Shown here one piece after another: positions 856-28,822 of a stretch of 44,652 bases of DNA. Within the stretch, counting starts at the first letter, position 1; every line of letters begins with the position of its first letter. The notes beneath the pieces were generated by a model that worked only from the letters and a program-made list of their open reading frames with translations, was not told the DNA's origin and ran no database searches. The position numbers were made by a program, and so were the translations under genes. The DNA lies in NCBI GenBank assembly GCA_023515795.1, contig JALGPX010000014.1, positions 72,614-117,265 of the forward strand, written 5' to 3'. The stretch is from Amoeboaphelidium occidentale (Eukaryota > Aphelidiomycota > Aphelidea).

Positions 856-3800
856 TTATTTATTTGAAGGAATGGAAGCATGGTAATGTGGCACTGAATC
901 GTTACCAATGAAGTGTCTTCCCTCCCAGTGCACTGTGTTGATTTGTTTGGCTAAAGTATCCAGTTTCAAAATGCTAAAGTTGTCAATGAGTTGTTGCTTT
1001 GAACTTCGATTTACATTAACACGTTTGAAATCACGATGCATATCAATGGTAATTGATTTACCTAACATCATTGATTCAAACAAGTCCACATTCAATTGAC
1101 TTTTAGGTATACCTTTCCCTCGCAAATGATACTTGATCTCCTCAACATCACCGTGTTTCTCTACATACTCCAAAAAGTAAAGTTTAGGAGCAATCCATCC
1201 GCCATATAGAATTTTACAATTGTCACCAAGATCGTCACTGATCCCTCCAATATCATTATTTAAGACCAGCCCTCTCAAGTTCCTTGAATGGATTTGAATA
1301 CTATCAGTATCTGTATAATAGGGAGAGTTTGCTAGCTGGTTCTTGGTATCATTACTATTAAAGAATGAATTTGTCTTTTGCAGATACTGAAGCATAATCC
1401 TCCGACTGAAACCCAATATAAAACTTCCTAAATAGCATGGCTTTGAAATCTTTGAAGCTAGATTCTCCTCATCCTGATACGTCAGATAGAAGCTTCCATC
1501 ACTTAAGGTTCTCATTGATAAACTTCCATACTTGATGTGGTACTTGATGAATTCTTCATGGAGATGAATAATCACATTTTCATCAAGTATGGGTCTTTGG
1601 ATTGTCTTGCCATATAATCCATTCATCATCAACTTTGCAAGTTTATACAATGCCGTGCCCTTTCTAGCATTTTTTTTGAACTCATACAGATAATTGATAT
1701 AGTTCCCAAAAACATTCTGAGTCTGCTCCCAATAGTAGCCTTCTACTATTGTCACTTTGTACCCATTTGCCAATGCATTGTCAATATCAACAGAGTTGTA
1801 GATTCCACATCCATCACGTAGATCCCATATCAAACGCCCTTCTTCTCTGCGAGGGAGTATGCCATCCAAAAGATTCTTATTAGTTACATAGTTGATTTGA
1901 TAGATGCCCATTTTAGGACATTTGGCAGTCCTTTGAATCAATTCATTAAAGTATATAAGAGACGGAGAATTTGGTTTCAAAGTGTTTGGAATACCTACAG
2001 GAAATTCATTTTGCATAGCTGCAGGATATAGTGAGTTCACGTCTGCATCAACAAGATAGTCTTCAATATCTTCAAATGGGATCTGTTTGTTCATGTATGC
2101 TTCTCGTTGACTGCTGACAAACTTGTGCTTATACTTATATGTTCTTCCCCCATATATCGACTCTCTAAAGAACGTTTCTTGTTCAGCTGTGGGCAAGAAT
2201 ACTGGGTCATTAGTATCACTGTACAAGAAGTTGATCCATGAAGCATAAGTAAGTTGAGATGTTGATAAATACTTGTAGAGATTTACACCAAATTTCTCAT
2301 AGCAGCTTTGGTTCAATCTTTCTGACAGTTTTTTTAAGCCCAATACATCTCCCTGCAAATACTTCAAACAGTCTGCCTGATCATCAATAGACATACATTC
2401 CCAGTCATCACCTAAATTATAATCAAACTCGCCCTTCTGAATGGTGCAGCCCAACTCTTCTAAATTCTGTCGCAAAGTCCCAGTGGTATGTTTCGAAATA
2501 TCAAAGCATGATATATTCCCAACACTTGCCTTAAGGATCACACCATTATTCAACAATAACTCATCAAGCTTGATGGAGTCATCTTTTGAGTGCATTTTGT
2601 TGATCTTCTTAACCAGCTCGTAGTGATCAAACTTGCTACCATTGTAGGCATTAACAAAAACTGATGTGTAATCAGAGTAGCCAAGTAGATGGTTCACAAA
2701 CTTTTCCATGCAATCTGTTCCTGTGAAGTATTGAAAAGTATTCTCAATATTGTCAACAAAACCAAGAATGTATGGGGTATGAATTTTGACATTTCCAACT
2801 GCTTTTCTTGTGTCGGTCTCTATATCGTAATGAACTATCACAATTTTATCATTCTTGCAATCAAAATTGAACTTGTCTTGTTTAAACGGATTGATCACGT
2901 ATCTATGCTTGCCCTCCTTGATCATCTTGTAGACAATCATATTGGTATTGCATGTATGTCTTGTAAGATACTTCCTACCACAGTCTGCACATTGTTGATA
3001 CTTCTTTATTTCGATCAACGAATAATGATCATCCTCCAGCAACAACTTGACAAGATCTTCTTTCCCAACTAATTCTCCTACAACAATATCATTTGACCAT
3101 ATTTCTAGACCGTGTTTGCCATCACAGCTATATTCACGAAAGATATCCAGGGCAGATTTAACATCAATCAATGAGTTCTCTTCATGGTTAAATTGCTGCC
3201 TTATTTGATTACAAAGGTTTTTAGTAAGCTTTTGTCTAATACTTGGAATATAACTCTGAATGCACTTGAAAAAGCAATTGTTATTTGAAGCCTTTGGATG
3301 AATGACTCTTTTTGTAGCATCATTTGTTTTAAGTTCTCGTTTGTTACAACCTCCCTGAATAGCCTTAATGATATCAATCTCAATTCTATTAAGGTCTTCA
3401 GAGTAATCTTCATTCTTACCAAAGAATCCATCTGCATATACATTGATCATGTGAACCAGGGTACTCTTGTTCTGAACATCAACACTCTTGAAAATCTTGT
3501 ATATGGCAAAATTGTCACAATCAACCAACTGTACATATTTCAACATGATGATGTCATTTGGTTTCAATTGTTCGTCTGTTATAACTTTGTCAATAAAAGC
3601 AGATACAACCATTGTCTGAGATGTCGTGATATCAACATCAAAAGGAATAGTTTTAATCCACTTGCCCCTTTCCCTCCCCTCACTCAATTCCTTGGCATAC
3701 TTCTTCTCTTTGTTTGCAAAGTATACTAGATCCCTTATTGGCAATAGTTCATTCTTTCCAATTAAATAACCAATATCATTGACTTTGCATTGCAATAGAT

Positions 3801-4023
3801 GTTCAACTTTGCCTTTGAAGATCTGAAATTCCAACTCATAATAGTCTCTTGTTAAGTCGTTTAAAGAATAGGTGAGCTCCTGTGATAATAGGGAAGAATT
3901 CTTCAATTTTTTCTTGAGCCGCAGGTGTTTCACATCAAAGACAAGATCAAACTCATCAATGAGATAGTCCAAGGATGGAAGCCTCTTGGGTTCATTGAAG
4001 GAAATCCGACTGGCTTTGACCAT
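856..4023 (-). CDS. Protein-primed family B DNA polymerase of a Polinton/Maverick
   Basis: This is a full-length 1055-residue ORF with an ATG at 4023. It has exonuclease motifs near residue 398 (HYDIETD), then YNGSKFDHYE and YLQGDVLGLKKL. Polymerase motif A (DADVNSLYPAAM) lies near 661, motif B (KLMMNGLYGK) near 803 and motif C (YYTDTDS) near 904. Protein-primed polymerases copy the element from terminal proteins, without RNA primers. The N-terminal third has a Cys-rich patch (CADCGRKYLTRHTC) and an NNNCFFKC stretch faintly like an OTU protease core; that resemblance is a guess. No stop or frameshift is visible, so this copy may be recent. A linear mitochondrial plasmid polymerase is the alternative, but the adjacent DD35E integrase argues for a Polinton. 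Confidence 0.9.
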   Translation of the reverse strand: MVKASRISFNEPKRLPSLDYLIDEFDLVFDVKHLRLKKKLKNSSLLSQELTYSLNDLTRDYYELEFQIFKGKVEHLLQCKVNDIGYLIGKNELLPIRDLVYFANKEKKYAKELSEGRERGKWIKTIPFDVDITTSQTMVVSAFIDKVITDEQLKPNDIIMLKYVQLVDCDNFAIYKIFKSVDVQNKSTLVHMINVYADGFFGKNEDYSEDLNRIEIDIIKAIQGGCNKRELKTNDATKRVIHPKASNNNCFFKCIQSYIPSIRQKLTKNLCNQIRQQFNHEENSLIDVKSALDIFREYSCDGKHGLEIWSNDIVVGELVGKEDLVKLLLEDDHYSLIEIKKYQQCADCGRKYLTRHTCNTNMIVYKMIKEGKHRYVINPFKQDKFNFDCKNDKIVIVHYDIETDTRKAVGNVKIHTPYILGFVDNIENTFQYFTGTDCMEKFVNHLLGYSDYTSVFVNAYNGSKFDHYELVKKINKMHSKDDSIKLDELLLNNGVILKASVGNISCFDISKHTTGTLRQNLEELGCTIQKGEFDYNLGDDWECMSIDDQADCLKYLQGDVLGLKKLSERLNQSCYEKFGVNLYKYLSTSQLTYASWINFLYSDTNDPVFLPTAEQETFFRESIYGGRTYKYKHKFVSSQREAYMNKQIPFEDIEDYLVDADVNSLYPAAMQNEFPVGIPNTLKPNSPSLIYFNELIQRTAKCPKMGIYQINYVTNKNLLDGILPRREEGRLIWDLRDGCGIYNSVDIDNALANGYKVTIVEGYYWEQTQNVFGNYINYLYEFKKNARKGTALYKLAKLMMNGLYGKTIQRPILDENVIIHLHEEFIKYHIKYGSLSMRTLSDGSFYLTYQDEENLASKISKPCYLGSFILGFSRRIMLQYLQKTNSFFNSNDTKNQLANSPYYTDTDSIQIHSRNLRGLVLNNDIGGISDDLGDNCKILYGGWIAPKLYFLEYVEKHGDVEEIKYHLRGKGIPKSQLNVDLFESMMLGKSITIDMHRDFKRVNVNRSSKQQLIDNFSILKLDTLAKQINTVHWEGRHFIGNDSVPHYHASIPSNK

Positions 4024-4080
4024 GAGACATGTATATATAGGGAACTATTAAAATTCTGAAATTAAATAATTAATAGTTTG

Positions 4081-4184
4081 CACCTTTGCACCTTTGCACC
4101 TTTGTACCTTTGTACCTTTATATCTTTGTACCTTTGCACCTTTGTACCTTTGTACCTTTGCACCTTTGTACCTTTGTACCTTTG
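4081..4184. repeat. 8-bp minisatellite, 13 units of YACCTTTG
   Basis: Thirteen tandem octamers (CACCTTTG or TACCTTTG, two with one or two changes) lie just upstream of the Polinton polymerase start. Degenerate CCTTT words continue to about 4255. It is either part of the element's 5' flank or terminal region, or simple host repeat. Confidence 0.9.
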
Positions 4185-4650
4185 GATGTTTTCAACTTTA
4201 CACATTTTACCTTTGCATGCTTGACCTTTGATGCTTTACCTTTTACCCTTCACCTTTAATTAATTAATTTATTTCGAAAATATCTCGCGATATATATAGA
4301 TGGTTTGAAACAATTGGAGTTTCAAATGATGACCGAGTGAAACATCAAAGGTTCAAAGGTTAAAGGTGTCAAAGGTCAGATCTCAAAGATCAGCATCATC
4401 AAAGACAAACATCAAAACTGAACTCAAGCAAGGGTGAAACGTGAAAGCTATCACCCCTATCAAGTGCATCTGGTGAGACCTTTATATCATCATTGAAACG
4501 AGATTATCAAGCTCATTCTTGACACATGTTAGCCATAGCCGAGACTCATCACAAACGATTCAATAGAGAACAGCAGAGAGCACAATCACAAGTGAGGAAT
4601 ATCAAGGTGTGTTTAAGATCTGTTAAAACTTTTTCGAGGCATATTTAAAG
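4185..4650. other. Noncoding stretch between Polinton polymerase and MITE-like element
   Basis: I see no supported gene here. The first 70 nt carry degenerate ACCTTT words; 4345-4400 carries the opposite-strand version (AAAGGT words), so the two flanks form a loose inverted arrangement around an AT-rich core with TCGCGA at about 4285. This could be the end of the Polinton, but its terminal repeat cannot be placed from one side. Confidence 0.5.
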
Positions 4651-4773: not shown

Positions 4774-5367
4774 GTGTTCACAGGCGACCACACCAATAAG
4801 GCTAGAAAGCCAAGCTCAGAAGTCGAAAAGGGAAAAGAAAAATCAAAATCTGACGTTCTCGCTTTAGATTATGAGCAATCCAAGAACTTCAAGGATACTC
4901 AATCGGCCATCCAAGTTGCGACTCAGTCTAAGTCAACAGGAAATTCCAAGAATTTCGTAAGAAGAAACAAATCCATGTTGAAACAAACATGGCTTCTTAT
5001 TAAAAGAACTTGGATCAACACAACAAGAGACACTGGAATCATGTATGTTCGGACTCTGTCTGCTTGGGGAATCCCATTATTGGTTGGTTTAATCTTCTTT
5101 CAAATGCCAAATGAAGCATCTTCTTCGAGAAACAGAATTAATGCTCTCTTGTTCTTGATGTGTGTGTTCTCCCTGTTTTGCCTTCCTGCAATATCAAAAA
5201 TTCTTGAAGATCGATTGTTATTTCAACGAGAAAGAGCATCTGGTGCATATTCCACAGTCCCCTATTGGTTTGCAACGTCCATTGTTGAGGTTCCTATTCT
5301 TCTATTGATTGCTGTTGGATATGGTTCTATTGTCTATTACATGTGCAATTTACTACTTTCACCATGA
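4774..5367 (+). pseudogene. ABCG-type ABC transporter, internal fragment
   Basis: The frame encodes a linker rich in Lys and Ser, then a connecting helix (KQTWLLIKRTWINTTRDTG) and about three membrane helices (GIPLLVGLIFF, NALLFLMCVFSLFCLP, IVEVPILLLIAVGYGSIVYY). This order is typical of the transmembrane half of ABCG/WHITE-type exporters. The ATPase domain that should precede it is absent: homology begins at once after the MITE-like element, with no ATG at the start (the frame opens at a GTG in DVFTGD). At the 3' side homology stops near 5343 where the opposite-strand kinase fragment begins. It is therefore broken at both ends and unlikely to be functional. An upstream exon lost in assembly is the alternative. 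Confidence 0.8.
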
Positions 5368-6100
5368 AATCTGTCAGAGCAATATCAAACGGCGCAAAAT
5401 GGCACACATAAAAATGCTGAACCTTAACCGCGACATCTTCGCCAGTCTTTAACCGAGCACGATGAACTTGCGCCAAAGAAGCGGAACCAACAGGATCATG
5501 ATCAAACTCGGCAAAGACTTCATGGAATGGCTTACGAAGATCAGCCTCTATAACCGACTTGACGGCATCCAGTGAAGACTGTGGGCACATGTTCTGCAAC
5601 ACCTTCATCGTTTCCGTGTATTCATCAGGCAGTAAATAAACCAGGGCCGAGATGTGTTGACCAAATTTGATGTAATCTCCTTCATTCTTCTTAAATGTAT
5701 CCAAAAGCTTTTCGGCTAACCTCTTGTGGCATTTCGACCATATTAACTCAGCTTCTTCTTCGGAAAGTCCCTTTGTAACAGAATCCCTTAGCGATAACTT
5801 GTAATCAGCCATGATGGAAGTCACAGAGATGCCCACACGCACACAGCGGACTATCGCGGAGTAGTAAATGTATGCCTTTGATATCAAACCATCATCATCT
5901 TTCGAGCCGTAGCTTCCAGTGTATGCGCCCGTAAACTTTGCTGCTCCAAGTATTACAGCATTCTTGAAATCATTATTTAATGCAGAAATCTCAATAAAGA
6001 AGGACGTTGAAATTCCAGCCAATTGAACTTCAAACAAGGGCCTTTCAGAATCTTTCAACAGATTTGGAATACGTATGTCGGAAACACCATATGGCCCCAT
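5327..6100 (-). pseudogene. ADCK1/UbiB-like atypical kinase, N-terminal fragment
   Basis: From the ATG at 6100 the frame gives 257 residues. It contains the family's KxGQ motif (YIKFGQHISAL), a stretch like ADCK1 (LVYLLPDEYTETMKVLQ), the Ala-rich nucleotide loop (VGSASLAQVHRARL) and the Lys of DVAVKVQH. These mark the ABC1/ADCK/UbiB family, atypical kinases of mitochondria linked to coenzyme Q and lipid homeostasis. Homology continues only to about DIALTDFMVKVVN, then ends at 5327 inside the opposite-strand ABC transporter fragment. The catalytic half of a protein normally near 500 residues is missing. The first 60-70 residues are not obviously conserved. I read it as a truncated gene; an intron with distant exons is less likely, because the break coincides with the break of the convergent gene. 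Confidence 0.75.
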
Positions 6101-6489
6101 GTTCTGTTCGCGATCGCGCTGTTTCAATCGAAAAGGCAAAGACTATCGAAATAATTAGAACCCTTCTCGTTTCAAGTCACTCTTTGAGCCTTATTTTTAT
6201 TTGAAGCCGTAACTGAGCAACTTTAGTGGGTTTGACTGTGGCAAAAACGCCTTAAGCACCTGGTGCCATGACTAATTGGGACACAAATGAAACCAACAGT
6301 AACTTAAATAACTTTCCGCACTAAAACAGATTTATTGTTATCCATGGTCTACTTTAACCTTAAGCGTATACGCATATCGTGTGATTATTGATCATGCGTA
6401 TTGTAACATCAATTACCGCGCTTTTGGGCAGAATCAAAACCTATGGTCCAATCGTTTCAACAAAATTTTGCTATTTTATTCATTTAGTC
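6101..6489. other. Noncoding spacer, upstream of the Fanzor gene
   Basis: No gene is supported. An in-frame ATG at 6394 would add 32 residues to the Fanzor protein, but the next ATG, at 6490, opens a basic, NLS-like N-terminus and is preferred. The left end of the Fanzor element should lie here, but I find no repeat that defines it. Confidence 0.45.
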
Positions 6490-8295
6490 ATGCCTGTTAT
6501 CACAAGATCGCAGAAAAAACCAAAGCACCACCCATATCAGACACGTCAGAGACCTCCTAGAGCTACAGCAGCTCCGAAGGCACCTGTTACAACTACTCAA
6601 GCGAAACAAGCGCAACAATTGAAGCACGCGCCATGGTGGACAGACCAGTCTAAAGTTATGTCTCAGAGACTAGCAGTCCAGTCTTCTGGAACACGATCAG
6701 CTCAAAGCGCTTTAACAAAGTTCAAAGTGACGAAGAAGAAGATATCTTGGTGTACGGCAAACTACTACGAACCACTGGCAAAGCTGAACAACAAGATTGA
6801 AATCCATGAGAATCCACCGGCGCCGTATCATTTAAATCGGCAGAGCCCTGAAAGTAAAAAGAGAAAGAAAACAAAACCACTGCAATCTGGTATGTCCTCT
6901 TACGACAAGAAGATTTGCAGCAGAATGAAATCTGGGCCAGACGAAAATGAAACAATGCGATCCGTCAAGATTCGTGTCTATCCCGAAGCCACACAGAAAG
7001 CCGCACTAAAACAGATATTTGGAATTGTTCGCGTGGTTTGGAACCAAGGGCTGGATGAAATGTTCCTCCGTGGCCACCCAAAGAACTGGCAGTCTCTCCG
7101 CAACAAGATTGTGACTGCATCAAATGTTTCCGAAGAAGAACAAGCAAGCCGTCCATGGCTGTACGATGGAAGCATTTGTTCAGCTTCAATTAAAGGGGAG
7201 GCAATCCACAAACTGGTCTCCTCCATCAAAGCCACCGAGGAATTATTAAGAGCTCAAAACAGAGCATTCAACTATCAAATGACACGAAAAAAGAAAAAAG
7301 ACTCTCGTCAAAGCTTAAGCTTCTACCCAGGAGGCGCCTACGCGCTTAGATGCATTGAGTCCACCAGCACCAGAAACGGTACAAAAAAGAACAACTTTGG
7401 CTTAAAACTTCCTTTCGATGCACTAGCACAGCCTTTGAAGGTCACATCAGAGTCTGAATTTCAGGGGGCCAAATCAATCATGGAGAATGAAATGGATAAA
7501 AAAGAATCCAATGAATACAAGAGGCTAGTTGAAGTTGTTTGGGAGAAACCGGATCAATACTACGTTTGCTTCCCATACACCAAGGCCAATCAAGAGAAGA
7601 CTATAGATGATCATCCAATAGCTGCTGCATTGGACCCCGGAGTTCGTACGTTTCAAACCGTGTACGACAGCTCCGGGAACTTCTTTGAAGCCGGGTAAGG
7701 TGACATAAGAAGAGTTGAAAGGCTTTGTGTTAATTTGGATCGCCTGATATCAAAAGCAGCTGGGGTCAAAACCGGTCGCAAGAATCGGTACAAAAGAAGA
7801 AGAATGAACGCGGCCATTCAAAGAGCCAGACAGCGAATTAAGAATTTGATTTCAGACTTTCATGGAAAACTCGCACACGATCTAACCAGTCGTTACAATG
7901 CGATTTTGATTCCTACTTTTTATGTCAGCAAGATGGTTATCAAGAACAATCGCAAGATCAACTCCAAAACGGCTAGAAACATGCTAAATTGGTCACATTA
8001 CAAGTTCAAACAAAAGTTGCTGCAAAAAGCGGAGGAAAATCCAAACTGCGAAGTTCATGTTGTCACCGAGGAATACGCTTCAAAAGCATGTGGAATTTGT
8101 GGGAGACTCAACCACAAACTAGGAGGAAACAAAACGTTTAATTGTACACACTGCGGTTTCAAGTTTGATCGAGACATGAATGCAGCAAGAAATATCATGA
8201 TCAAGAATTTGGAATCAAGTGGATACAAACTCGCGAGCCTTCGGGCCTGTAGGCTACTACCAGTCGCAAGACCGCAGAATCGGTATTACCAGTAG
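6490..8295 (+). pseudogene. Fanzor (eukaryotic TnpB-like RNA-guided nuclease), one nonsense codon
   Basis: Two stretches in the same frame, 6490-7695 and 7699-8295, read as one protein of about 600 residues split by a single TAA at 7696-7698. The N-terminus is basic (MPVITRSQKKPKHHPYQTRQ), followed by a helix-turn-helix-like IRVYPEATQKAALKQIFG segment. RuvC-I Asp is in AALDPGVRTF, RuvC-II Glu in VVTEEYASKACGICG, a four-Cys zinc finger is CGIC..CTHC, and RuvC-III Asp is in FDRDMNAARN. This set and spacing match Fanzor/TnpB proteins, which cut DNA guided by an RNA from the element's own 3' end. The TAA sits in EAG*GDIRRVERLC, where relatives usually have Lys or similar, so one base change explains it. 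All catalytic residues remain. Either a recently dead copy or a sequencing error. Confidence 0.88.
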
Positions 8296-8391
8296 TATCA
8301 GGTTAACGTAGCAGGTAATTTTTTATTTTTTTTACTATCTAATTCTGAATGCTGCGCGTCGGCTTGACAAGCCGGCTTGCGGCAACCTTAG
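8200..8391 (+). ncRNA. Putative Fanzor guide-RNA scaffold and element right end
   Basis: The last 96 nt of the reading frame and the next 96 nt are conserved in two further copies, well past the stop codon, so selection or recent descent acts on the nucleic acid. 8235-8258 contains GCC-UUCG-GGC and GCC-UGUA-GGC mini-hairpins. 8350-8384 forms a terminal hairpin: CGGCTT-GAC-AAGCCG (8360-8374) inside an outer TGCTGC/GCGGCA stem with a 4x4 internal loop. All three copies end in CTTAG. In TnpB and Fanzor systems the omega/f RNA overlaps the 3' coding end and right end and takes its guide from DNA just beyond. Transcription is inferred, not seen. Confidence 0.6.
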
Positions 8392-8516
8392 ATTTCAGCA
8401 TGATGATCAAACGCTTCTTTGCATCAAGACCAAATTGGTAATAAATTTTCTAAGTCTCGCTCATGCGTGTGTAGTTCTAATGCATGGAAGAACAGACAGA
8501 ATAATGATCACTTCGN
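8392..8516. other. Unique flank of Fanzor copy 1, ending in a contig join (N at 8516)
   Basis: 8392-8515 matches neither of the other two Fanzor flanks and has no supported gene. The single N at 8516 is followed directly by sequence from inside a second Fanzor copy. It reads as a contig end joined to another contig, so the real distance and the missing part of copy 2 are unknown. Confidence 0.7.
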
Positions 8517-8735
8517 TGATCGAGACATGAATGCAGCAAGAAATATTATGATCAAGAATTTGGAATCAAGTGGATACAAACTCGTGAGCCTTCGGGCCTG
8601 TAGGCTACTACCAGGGAAAGCTGCAGAACCGGTTACAAGTTTATCAGGTTAAAGTAGTAGGTAATTTTTATTTTTTTACTATCTAATTCTGAATGCTGCG
8701 CGTCGGCTTGACAAGCCGGCTTGCGGCAACCTTAG
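8517..8735 (+). mobile_element. Fanzor copy 2, right-end fragment
   Basis: It begins inside the RuvC-III/zinc-finger coding end (DRDMNAARNIMIKNL) and ends at the shared CTTAG. It is a distinct copy: it differs from copy 1 at several places, notably the block after CTACTACCAG, and shares that block with copy 3. Its own frame runs a little further, to about 8652. The 5' part is missing at the N, so a complete element may lie in the gap. Confidence 0.85.
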
Positions 8736-19614: not shown

Positions 19615-19724
19615 AGTTCAGGCTGGTCAGACTCTTCAAACACGTTTTAAAACTTTTGTTCCGCGGAATCAAAACAAGCTAAACCAACTGTTGCAAAAAA
19701 GAAATGTCCCTTCAGAGCCTACCN

Positions 19725-19917
19725 AATATTATGATCAAGAATTTGGAATCAAGTGGATACAAACTCGTGAGCCTTCGGGCCTGTAGGCTACTACCAGCGA
19801 AAGCTGCAGAACCGGTAACAAGTTTATCAGGTTAAAGTAGCAGGTAATTTTTATTTTTTACTATCTAATTCTGAATGCTGCGCGTCGGCTTGACAAGCCG
19901 GCTTGCGGCAATCTTAG
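19725..19917 (+). mobile_element. Fanzor copy 3, right-end fragment
   Basis: It starts directly after the N at 19724, inside the last codons of a Fanzor frame, and ends at the same CTTAG. It has the UUCG hairpin and the terminal hairpin. It shares the AGCTGCAGAACCGG block with copy 2, not copy 1. The 19615-19723 stretch before the N has no supported gene and is probably the end of another contig. Confidence 0.85.
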
Positions 19918-25521: not shown

Positions 25522-28082
25522 TTAAAATAAATTGTGTAACTGAGCTAACGGCAGAAGAGTCGCTGGCGCCATCTTTACGACTGTCCCATCAATTGTTACT
25601 TCATAAGTTTCGGGGTCAACTTTCAAGTCAGGCATGTAATCATTCAGCTTCATGTCTTTCTTTCCAATAGTTCTGCAATTCTGAACAGCTACCACCTTCT
25701 TTTTTAAACCATAGAGTTTCTTGACATCTTTTTGGGCTGCATGTTTAGAAACAAATGTAACGGCAACAGTAGAACTTTCATTTTGAATTGCACTAGGAAA
25801 ACCACCAAACATAGATCTGCCTAAAACAGGCTGAGGAGTAGGAATACTAGCATTTGCATCTCCCATATTAGCCCAGGCTATGACTCCGCCTTTCAAGACC
25901 ACCTCTGGTTTAGATCCAAAAAATGCAGGATCCCACAAAACCATATCAGCCAACTTGCCGACTTCCAACGAACCCACTACACGTGATAAGCCATGTGCTA
26001 TAGCTGGGTTGATTGTGTATTTAGCAACATATCTTTTAATTCGGGCGTTATCAGCTTTTGCGTCTGAGCTCAACACTCCTCGATGTTTCTTCATCTTATC
26101 TGCTGTTTGCCAAGTTCGACATATCACTTCACCAATTCTCCCCATAGCCTGTGAATCGCTGCTTATAACGCTGATGGCCCCTATGTCATGCAAAACATCT
26201 TCTGCTCCGATTGTCTCAGCTCTGATTCTACTTTCCGCAAATGCAATATCCTCCGGAATATTCTTATCTAAATGATGACAAACCATAAGCATATCCAAAT
26301 GTTCGTCAAGTGTATTAACAGTATAAGGTCTTGTCGGGTTAGTTGAAGATGGTATCACATTAGGAAGAGAACAAACTCGGATGATATCTGGCGCGTGCCC
26401 GCCTAAACCTAAGTAGCTGAAACTGAAAATTTACCTCCAGCGCCTTCGGTATGATAAGCATGAATGGTTCTGTTCTTGAATGCGCTAATTGTATCTTCTA
26501 CGAACCCAGATTCGTTCAATGTATCAGTGTGGATTGTAACTTGTACATCTTCTTCGTCACAGACTGATAAGCAGTTATCGATCGCAGCCGGAGTTGTTCC
26601 GTAGTCTTCGTGAAGTTTAAGACCCACAGCACCAGCATGAATTTGTTCCCTCAAGGCTTCAGGAGAGCTGCAATTTCCTTTACCTGTAAATCCAAAATTC
26701 AAAGGCAAGCCATCTACAGCTTGCAACATGAATTCAATATTTTTTGGACCAGCAGTACATGTAGTCGCATTGGTGCCAGTATTCGGACCAGTTCCTCCAC
26801 CAACCAAAGTCGTTAAACCGCTAGAAATAGCTTCAGTGGCTAATTGCGGACAAATGAAATGGACATGAGTGTCGATGCCTCCAGCTGTTAGAATCTTGCC
26901 TTCTCCAGCTAAAACTTCAGTGGAAGCACCAAACACTAAACTGGGGTCTACTCCATCCATCACGTCCTGATTACCACTCTTTCCAATGCCGCAAATAAGT
27001 CCATTTTTAATTCCAACATCTGCCTTGTAAATTCCTGAATAGTCAACGATCAAAGCATTTGTTATCACCAAATCAGGCGATTCTGCAAATAGGCAGTAAT
27101 TTGATTGTCCCATACCTTCTCTCAACACTTTGCCGCCTCCGAAAACAGCTTCATCGCCATACCTGCACATATCTTTTTCAACTTCAATCCACAAACAAGT
27201 ATCTCCTAGTCTCACTCTATCACCAGTAGTTGGACCGTAGCTCTGAGCGTAAAGTTCTCTCGGAAGTTTGAATGGAGCAATATCGTGTATTTCATGTTGA
27301 GTTTCCTTTTTGTGAAGAAAACCTGCCTTAACCATGTCTGAGACAATTTGTTCAGTCCTTTTCGTGTCAACCTTGCCCTTTGAAAAACCATTTCCACCAG
27401 ACATGATCATATTTCCACCGAAATCAACAAGAGACACCGTCTTTGTTTCTCCTGGTTCAAAACGCACTGCAGAACCTGCAGGTATATCGAGCTTTTTACC
27501 ATACGACAATGATCTATCAAACTCCAGAGCTTTGTTTGTTTCCATGAAGTGATAATGACTTCCAACTTGAATAGGTCTATCCCCTGTATTTGTGACCTTT
27601 AGAGAAATCCTTTTTCGCTCTGGAACTAAAACAATAGGATCTGCTTTTGCTGTCAGAACACAACCCGGCCCTCTGTTCTCTCCATAGTATTCGTTTAACT
27701 CAGCGAGCGGAAACTTGACTTTAGATGGTACCGGCAGGAAGCTTCCATACAATGCTAACTCTAAATCGCCATCATCTGTACAAATTGGTTCATGAATCGT
27801 GATAAGTTTCGTGCCATCCTTAAATGTTCCTTCGACTTGAATTTCATGCACACAATGACAGACTTCAGGCATAACATGTCTCCTTCCCAAAATGCGTGTC
27901 CCAATGTCCATTAGCTCTGCAACAGTATGCTTTCCATCTCTTATGAATTCCAAAAGCTGAGCAGATATCAGCGCAACAGTTTCAACGTAATTCAGCTTCA
28001 CGCCGCGAGCCAAGCGCTTCTGAGCCAGTGAGCCAACTTGATGAATTATAAGCTTGTCCAATTCTCGAGGCAGCAATTTCAT
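25522..28082 (-). CDS. ure1: Urease, single-chain fungal/plant type
   Basis: Exons 28082-26435 and 26402-25522, joined across a 32-nt intron (26403-26434, GTAAAT..TTTAG), give 842 residues. The ORF fuses the gamma, beta and alpha parts of bacterial urease. It starts [11 protein letters not shown]. Nickel ligands and catalytic residues are visible: THVHFICP, the Lys to be carbamylated in [35 protein letters not shown] (spanning the intron) and the flap Cys/His of MVCHHL. Urease hydrolyses urea to ammonia and carbamate, and needs accessory Ni-delivery proteins not present in this window. The start codon lies 8 nt from that of SRP receptor beta on the other strand. Confidence 0.97.
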
Positions 28083-28090
28083 TCCGAACA

Positions 28091-28822
28091 ATGAATTTTA
28101 CATTTCTAGACTTGTCGCCCAGTTTATCGATCGCTTTAATTGTGGTAATCCTTACCACGGCGTTCATTGTCCTCCGATACCTTCCGGCCGCATCGAAAGT
28201 TTCTTATGGCGTTGGCAATAATAGGAAAACTGTTCTTTTAATGGGCCCTAGCGGCTCTGGTAAAACTTCACTGTTTTGCGAATGGATTTACGAGCACATT
28301 CCACCAACTGTTCCATCAATGAAAGAGTCCAAAGGAAAGTATAAAGGCATGGAAATATTGGATTTGCCTGGAGCCTCAAGACTGCGGAATTTATACGAAA
28401 ATCATTTACAAAGTGTCAGAACTATAATTTTTGTTCTGGACAGTTCAAGCACAGCATTGCAAAGGGACCTTCATAATATTTCAGAGCAGATTTACGATGT
28501 GCTTGTGAATGAAACTGTACAAAAGAATTATAAGAACATTAAGTTCATAATTCTCTGCAACAAGCAGGATGAAGTACTTGCACATGCAACAGGAAAAATA
28601 CAGGAAATGCTGGAGCACGAAATGAATGCTTTGCGGAATTCAAAGACTTCCTTTCAGCAGCTGAAGCACGGACAGAAGCCAGGCGTAGAAGAAAGAGATT
28701 TATTTTTGGGCATTGACGGTGAAGCATTTAAGTTTGAGCATGTTGAAAATGATGTCGTAGTTTTGGGCGGTTCAGTTGTTCAAGGAAGTCTAGAAGAGCT
28801 GGAAGCTGCGGTATTCAAGTGA
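28091..28822 (+). CDS. SRPRB: Signal recognition particle receptor beta subunit
   Basis: A 243-residue intronless protein. A single N-terminal membrane anchor ([17 protein letters not shown]) is followed by a small GTPase domain: P-loop GPSGSGKT near residue 51, [10 protein letters not shown] near 92 in switch II, and NKQDEV near 157 (the NKxD motif). This matches the ER-anchored Arf-like beta subunit that docks the SRP-ribosome complex. The start is set by the ATG at 28091. Its promoter must overlap urease sequence. It converges on the next gene with one base between stop codons. Confidence 0.9.

Follow-up and report, generated by a model that had tools for sequence, protein, structure and literature searches.

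The cryo-EM study of the ISFba1 TnpB (PMC11061315) describes an IS607 reRNA whose apical loop pairs with U182–A186 and whose scaffold ends at G187. Pseudoknot mutants of ISXfa1 lost activity and partly regained it according to a second report (PMC10711439), which also gives the Fanzor pattern (a DPG motif in RuvC1 and a glutamate that precedes the zinc finger by six residues), describes cyanobacterial IS607 pro-Fanzors with this DPG and displaced glutamate, and predicts that the terminal repeats of other transposons carrying Fanzors form part of the scaffold. SpuFz1 of Spizellomyces punctatus, a Fanzor1, has inverted repeats of 30 bases, and small-RNA sequencing showed its scaffold to be 75 bases long (PMC10432273).

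The locus analyzed here, from the aphelid Amoeboaphelidium occidentale, shares with the cyanobacterial pro-Fanzors (PMC10711439) the RuvC fingerprint and a predicted scaffold overlapping the coding end. Also common to both are a 3-bp stem with a 6-base loop, five bases that would pair near the right end, and the end motif GTA(T/G)CAG. In the cyanobacterial pro-Fanzors the flank follows directly after this motif, whereas about 76 extra bases lie there in 15 of the 16 aphelid copies. Like the loop of the ISFba1 reRNA, which forms PK2, the aphelid loop is predicted to pair with five bases before the last base of the scaffold; the ISFba1 scaffold, however, is longer and of the RAGATH-18 type (PMC11061315), whereas the aphelid right end matched no Rfam family, RAGATH-18 included, and gave only unrelated families below their gathering scores. 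SpuFz1 resembles the aphelid case in being a fungal Fanzor present in several copies, with conserved noncoding sequence at the 3′ end and variable sequence in the flank (PMC10432273). A literature search found no work joining Fanzors with aphelids, and judged by title the literature on aphelids and transposons held none on this subject.

The window, i.e., the whole analyzed stretch of 44,652 nucleotides, carries eukaryotic genes and belongs to an assembly of 11.3 Mb in 204 contigs. An annotated A. occidentale protein matches a copy on contig C52 with 100% identity over 215 residues and 99.3% over 147, and the assembly was accordingly assigned to this species of the Aphelidiomycota. Aphelids are parasites of algae. 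The Fanzor gene of the first copy (Table 1) is interrupted in translation by an in-frame TAA at 7696–7698, and its Pfam match to OrfB_IS605 lies below the cut-off. The original prediction had called this gene a Fanzor, and by its fingerprint the protein is one: the window copy matches DPG…ExxxxxxCxxC…CxxC…D, with the internal stop shown as X, as do open C-terminal frames of three other copies (C37, C71a, and C71b), while the disrupted or truncated C52 and C54 did not match the pattern. Among solved structures the C-terminal piece comes closest to the TnpB-like protein L79 (E = 1.1e-17), which we take to be the Fanzor2 of mimivirus, and the N-terminal piece had no solved relative up to E = 0.1. 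The NCBIfam model guided_TnpB requires 100 bits, and the C-terminal piece scores 88.4. Among the 120 of 414 hits listed for this piece, nine carry the name of an organism outside A. occidentale, and all nine are cyanobacterial (Scytonema, Calothrix, Plectonema, Chroococcidiopsidaceae, Brasilonema, and Coleofasciculus), with identities of 42–50% over 62–75% of the query, and those that were aligned have DPG and EEYTS in common with the aphelid protein. On this comparison of sequences the nearest named relatives outside A. occidentale, among the hits listed, appear to be cyanobacterial IS607-type TnpBs; metagenomic proteins without an organism name scored higher in the same list (52% identity), and the true nearest relatives may therefore lie outside the cyanobacteria named. 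The cyanobacterial TnpBs among the named hits, the solved relative L79, and the RNA pseudoknot described below point to a Fanzor2 or pro-Fanzor type and not to Fanzor1. Close relatives of the protein were sought in viral and genome contigs, and none was confirmed. Right ends of this kind from Amoeboaphelidium protococcarum or other aphelids were likewise absent from the collections searched. The TNB domain was found at 90 places in the whole assembly (E up to 0.001), which is a large number of Fanzor-like genes for 11 Mb; the related genes at C196 and C40 form a family that seems to belong to another Fanzor type.

Table 1. Features of the Fanzor right end and its copies (positions refer to the window).
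Feature	Position	Strand	Remarks
Fanzor gene, copy 1	6487..8295	+	HTH_OrfB_IS605, weak OrfB_IS605, Cas12f1-like TNB (Pfam)
GCC-UUCG-GGC hairpin	8237..8246	+	Unchanged in 8/12 copies holding it
Predicted scaffold stem-loop	8249..8260	+	3-bp stem 8249–8251/8258–8260, loop 8252–8257
Predicted pseudoknot 5′ strand GCUAC	8253..8257	+	Partner GUAGC 8308–8312
Four-pair hairpin ACCG-CAGAAY-CGGT	8271..8284	+	100% of cells paired; four pairs with one-sided changes only
Stop codon, copy 1	8293..8295	+	
Putative ancestral right end AGGTTAACGTAGCAG	8300..8314	+	Compare cyanobacterial ends; C20 stops here; 8308–8312 is the predicted pseudoknot 3′ strand
76-base extension, at the presumed guide position	8315..8390	+	T-runs, terminal hairpin, CTTA
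Terminal imperfect hairpin	8350..8384	+	15 pairs, of which three are G-U in sense RNA
CTTA(G), probable outer right end of the mobile unit	8387..8391	+	13 distinct junctions
Second right-end copy, C12b	8551..8735	+	Copy starts after N at 8516
Third right-end copy, C12c	19734..19917	+	Copy starts after N at 19724

The 192-base right end used as query was found at 16 places genome-wide, and a 33-base pattern of the terminal hairpin with at most 3 mismatches at 15, the reversed control pattern giving none. Thirteen distinct junctions were considered, C54 (flank as in C12a) and C71c (flank 96.6% like that of C71a) having been dropped. All 13 diverge after CTTA, with a mean pairwise difference of 0.751 over flank positions 2–40; the next base is G in ten, C in two, and T in one. 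The common end at CTTAG noted originally is thus reduced to CTTA, since the G is not strictly part of it. The three window copies with their shared UUCG and terminal hairpins were found as first described. The UUCG hairpin, judged copy by copy, has longer, altered stems in C109, C138, and C20 and is mostly lost in C71b. The estimate of about 96 noncoding bases is correct for the first copy, but the second and third have 83 and 82, because their C-terminal tail is read in another frame. The stop codon is a TAA inside GGTTAA (8301–8306) in C54, C12b, C12c, and C109, and a TAG inside GTAGC in C138 and C20. The 5′ limits of the second and third copies are set by single-N assembly joins and not by biology. 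The window has six single Ns, and at five of them (8516, 17422, 40043, 41193, and 43056) the sequence after the N repeats a nearby stretch before it, and at 19724 the preceding stretch is not repeated; the five tandem duplications are probably overlapping contig ends joined by an N and may be assembly artefacts.

For comparison, loci of cyanobacterial relatives were fetched (the best 80 of 200 confirmed), of which 51 have a serine-recombinase motif upstream and 58 a recognizable zinc-finger motif. The motif GTATCNG occurs within 260 bases downstream in 48 of the 58 zinc-finger loci, compared with 13 of 494 background windows. The cyanobacterial elements end GGTTAAA(A/T)GTATC(A/T)G, and in 118 pairs that are more than 85% alike before GTATCNG, similarity over the following 30 bases averages 26%. 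Upstream of this end lies a stem-loop, G(A/C/T)G-(A/G)GATAC-C(T/G/A)C, with a loop GATAC complementary to the terminal GTATC. RNAalifold, applied to 20 non-redundant ends, returned the 3-pair stem around (A/G)GATAC as the sole helix; this stem is GAG/CTC, GCG/CGC, or GTG/CAC in 43 of 45 loci, i.e., fully paired and covarying. The pairing of GATAC with GTATC is itself fixed by the choice of both as search words, and independent support comes from background windows of the same loci, of which 3 in 1,200 contain the two words with a spacing of 30 bases or more. The first GATAC of each locus was taken as the loop; in L126 this choice is wrong, as it may be in the second poorly paired row, and the counts stand without correction for it. 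Among 39 loci from a viral catalogue the zinc-finger motif was recognized in three, two of which (L170 and L171) have a right end GAGGGATACCTC…GTATCAG, as in cyanobacterial pro-Fanzors.

The pairing between loop and right end was spotted by eye in the cyanobacteria, and the aphelid hairpin was then sought as a prediction, namely that a core ending GTAGCAG should be preceded by a 3-6-3 hairpin with the loop xGCTAC. Such a hairpin is present, GTA-GGCTAC-TAC, with GTAGC as its partner (Table 1). Its stem is fully paired in 11 of 12 copies and has the 3-6-3 shape of the cyanobacterial relatives, and the pseudoknot is complete in 10 of 13 copies, with four of five pairs in C71b and C57 and three in C109; an extra U within the 3′ strand of C37 and C71b was skipped in these counts. 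The stem reads GGT/ACC in C138 and C20 and AGT/ACC in C109, so that two pairs are changed on both sides, and these three rows may reflect one inherited event. When sequences were shuffled with the 3′ end fixed, a 3-6-3 hairpin complementary to GTAGC arose in 29 of 20,000 cases (373 if G-U pairs were admitted), and 19 of the 2,856 NNNNNAG sites of the window have such a hairpin upstream. The end motif is weak by itself: in a position weight matrix the block of copy 1 scores 3.7 bits and that of copy 3 8.0, and other sites of the window reach 9.2.

The original prediction had asked for covariance beyond drift, which the inner core provides. The stem, the pseudoknot, and the third hairpin together are paired in 96.7% of cells, compared with 90.9% in shuffled alignments and 15–35% in slid structures; cells changed on both sides within the family number 6 (1.6 in shuffles), and the covariation score is 0.146 (0.079 in shuffles). 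None of 500 shuffles was as high on any of these three measures. Counting pairs rather than cells gave no excess: two pairs have a both-sided change and seven further pair types occur, and 212 of the 500 shuffles were as high. With cyanobacterial and aphelid rows combined (n = 32), 250 of 256 cells are paired, and the 10 distinct rows pair in 74 of 80 cells, against a shuffled maximum of 69 in 5,000. The stem-loop is variable, with a substitution rate of 20.2%, and as far as the aligned copies tell it is the pairing and not the sequence that is kept. A scaffold RNA is thus very probably encoded at the gene end, and its predicted overlap with the coding end agrees with the stem and pseudoknot common to the cyanobacterial relatives.

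The first-marked limit of this scaffold is not supported. It had been placed at the terminal hairpin and CTTAG, but the guide-side pseudoknot strand of the relatives ends at the equivalent of 8312 and copy C20 stops at 8314, so the scaffold probably ends at 8314, 76 bases before the end marked at first. Counted from the RD.N codons, the right end lies at 111–130 bases in cyanobacteria; in the aphelid, 8314 lies at 133 and 8391 at 210. C20 and C138 are identical at 163 of 164 positions through GTAGCAG and at 7 of 40 thereafter. There is no N within 100 bases of the boundary in C20, and its flank occurs once in the assembly; an empty site for this flank was sought and none was found. The inner end of the C20 type is represented by this one copy. 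Three contigs (C179, C143, and C6) start within 1 base of the 8314 boundary, as would be expected if the assembly graph branches there. A variable flank directly after 8314 is present in C20 and absent from the 15 extended copies, whose extension measures 71–76 bases in the alignment of the other copies. C138 and C20 differ in the end they use although they are almost the same sequence, which suggests that the inner and the outer end could both be used not long ago. As on the non-IS607 transposons of the Fanzor2* group (PMC10711439), a Fanzor2-type nuclease would here be combined with an element end that is not of the IS607 kind. Fanzor2* elements, however, are described with terminal inverted repeats and target duplications (PMC10711439), whereas the outer end of the aphelid unit consists of a single hairpin and CTTA, and C20 still has the inner end.

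The first 20 bases of the extension, which occupy the presumed slot of the guide, differ by 11.3% substitutions and 8.6% gap cells, compared with 4.3% and 2.7% further on, so that conservation within the extension is lowest here. Substitutions amount to 5.9% in the core end and 2.7% in the terminal part; as both are conserved and the slot between them is less so, two separate constraints are suggested, one on the scaffold core and one on the outer end of the mobile element. This pattern also bears on the idea that the RNA is cut as in the relatives and that the fixed 16–20 bases past 8314 serve as a guide common to all copies. Homologous sequence does fill the slot of 15 copies, but its low conservation and its composition, mostly T-runs and poor as a guide, make such a frozen guide very improbable.

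Conservation past the stop codon, a main argument of the original prediction, was confirmed by the seven divergent copies, in which the differences are 3.0% at 8345–8391 but 28.5% at third codon positions, with 6.9% at first and 8.0% at second positions, and none of 20,000 permutations reached the contrast with third positions. The right end is thus conserved by constraint and not by recency. Upstream of it the tail at 8233–8295 differs by 15.6%, 8296–8327 by 8.4%, and 8328–8344 by 6.2% in these copies. The C-terminal tail after GYK is framed differently among copies, and protein sequence is therefore not the cause of the tail's conservation. In the last 16 core codons third positions differ by 0.199, compared with 0.297 (p = 0.083), which is only suggestive of constraint there.

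Within the extension the terminal hairpin folds at −22.5 kcal/mol as sense RNA and −13.0 kcal/mol as antisense, and the folding model thus favors a structure of the sense strand. It is the only structure that RNAalifold found across all 16 right ends. No compensatory change was seen in its 15 pairs, because they hardly vary, and the comparison of covariance with drift is uninformative for this part. A search of viral contigs for the hairpin core gave no matches. The fold of the whole 192 bases is ordinary (z = −1.13), but that of the 96 noncoding bases is good in sense (z = −3.59) and not in antisense (−0.78). The latter would suit a scaffold that has been lengthened to CTTA(G), with the terminal hairpin as one of its parts and each copy's own flank as guide, as would the position of the most conserved part (2.7–3.0%) at 8345–8391 and a possible pairing of AGGU at 8300–8303 with ACCU beside CTTAG (97.9% of cells, four pairs, none compensatory). 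The Fanzors carried by transposons offer a precedent (PMC10711439). However, the AGGU match is short and chance could yield it, the pseudoknot strand that adjoins the guide in the relatives already ends 78 bases short of the CTTA terminus, and both C20 and the cyanobacterial elements terminate at the inner end; a lengthened scaffold is therefore considered unlikely. It is also conceivable that the right end has no present RNA function and is kept only as the DNA end of a transposon, with the core as a relic. The in-frame stop of the window copy, the stops inside the matches at C71c, C52, C109, C138, and C20, and the terminal hairpin free of both-sided change would agree with this, but a core end differing by just 5.9% and an inner stem that pairs in 11 of 12 copies despite both-sided change at two pairs argue against a relic, which we regard as highly unlikely.

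The reading that we prefer, and consider likely, is that of a Fanzor2-type right end with a scaffold core ending at 8314 and an extension that acts as the outer mobile end; homology, covariation, junctions, and constraint speak for it at the level of sequence. The sense strand would encode a guide-RNA scaffold into which the last codons and the stop extend, and the core of an RNA transcribed through the 3′ end would bind the nuclease in the manner of IS607 TnpBs. The loop of the 8249–8260 stem-loop would pair with 8308–8312, and the guide slot would begin at 8315. In a copy of the C20 type the bases after the scaffold would be a guide derived from the flank, and in the 15 other copies a short lead and T-runs would follow. 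The RNA of these extended copies would either not be guided by the flank, or the extension would be looped out with the flank still serving. The added segment 8315–8390 would then be for movement rather than part of the scaffold, its hairpin presumably being recognized by the mobilizing enzyme. A more tentative proposal, which goes beyond what we would expect to hold, is that this fixed mobile segment of about 76 bases fills the guide slot and uncouples the nuclease from targeting encoded in the flank, both forms existing in one genome and two nested ends having been used recently. A possible parallel is TldR, which we take to be derived from TnpB. TldR is reported as a case of protein and guide RNA put to fixed use, but as a phage-encoded transcription factor (PMC13418256), and the aphelid system shows no sign of a regulatory role. 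If the preferred reading is right, a fungal Fanzor is tied to cyanobacterial pro-Fanzors via RNA as well as protein, through a link that includes compensatory changes in a pseudoknot whose counterparts in IS607 TnpBs are required for activity. The inner end, the outer end, and the near-identical copies would form a natural series in which to study the fate of an RNA-guided nuclease whose element end has shifted beyond its guide slot, and the point where copies diverge, a natural marker of the boundary between scaffold and guide, can mislead.

The mobilizing enzyme was sought near the gene and in the assembly. Unlike in the cyanobacterial pro-Fanzors, no TnpA-like serine recombinase gene was found beside the aphelid Fanzor gene. 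The sole Resolvase hit of the assembly (C172:89432-89881) has no TNB hit within 60 kb on its contig, and its best NCBIfam match is the IS607 transposase with 50.7 bits (cut-off, 110). Y1 transposases of the IS200/IS605 type gave no hits in the assembly, the family being detected in 5 of 14 control genomes, and Helitron_like_N gave no signal in the assembly or in its controls. A Helitron2 origin was considered, as TTCAGAAT at 6044–6051 and ATTCTGAA, which precedes the terminal hairpin, are complementary and resembled the asymmetric repeats of Helitron2; this match was discarded as a left end because the 5′ block around it runs about 250–510 bases further left at C40, C153, C26, C168, and C52. 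This block (6006–6237) matches 15 other places on 11 contigs, and at C196 it lies upstream of the different Fanzor family. A left end was sought and established in no copy. The minus-strand ORF at 5327–6139, a candidate for a divergent partner gene, proved to be an ABC1-kinase fragment and not a transposase, and inspection by eye of the reverse-strand ORFs at C52 and C168 revealed none that was transposase-like. Elsewhere in the window, 856–4023 holds a 1055-residue DNA polymerase ORF (DNA_pol_B_2, organellar and viral), beside which lies an 8-base tandem array of TTTGCACC/TTTGTACC (4077–4188), and 26409–28091 contains a fused urease gamma-beta-alpha ORF with a partly covered amidohydrolase domain.
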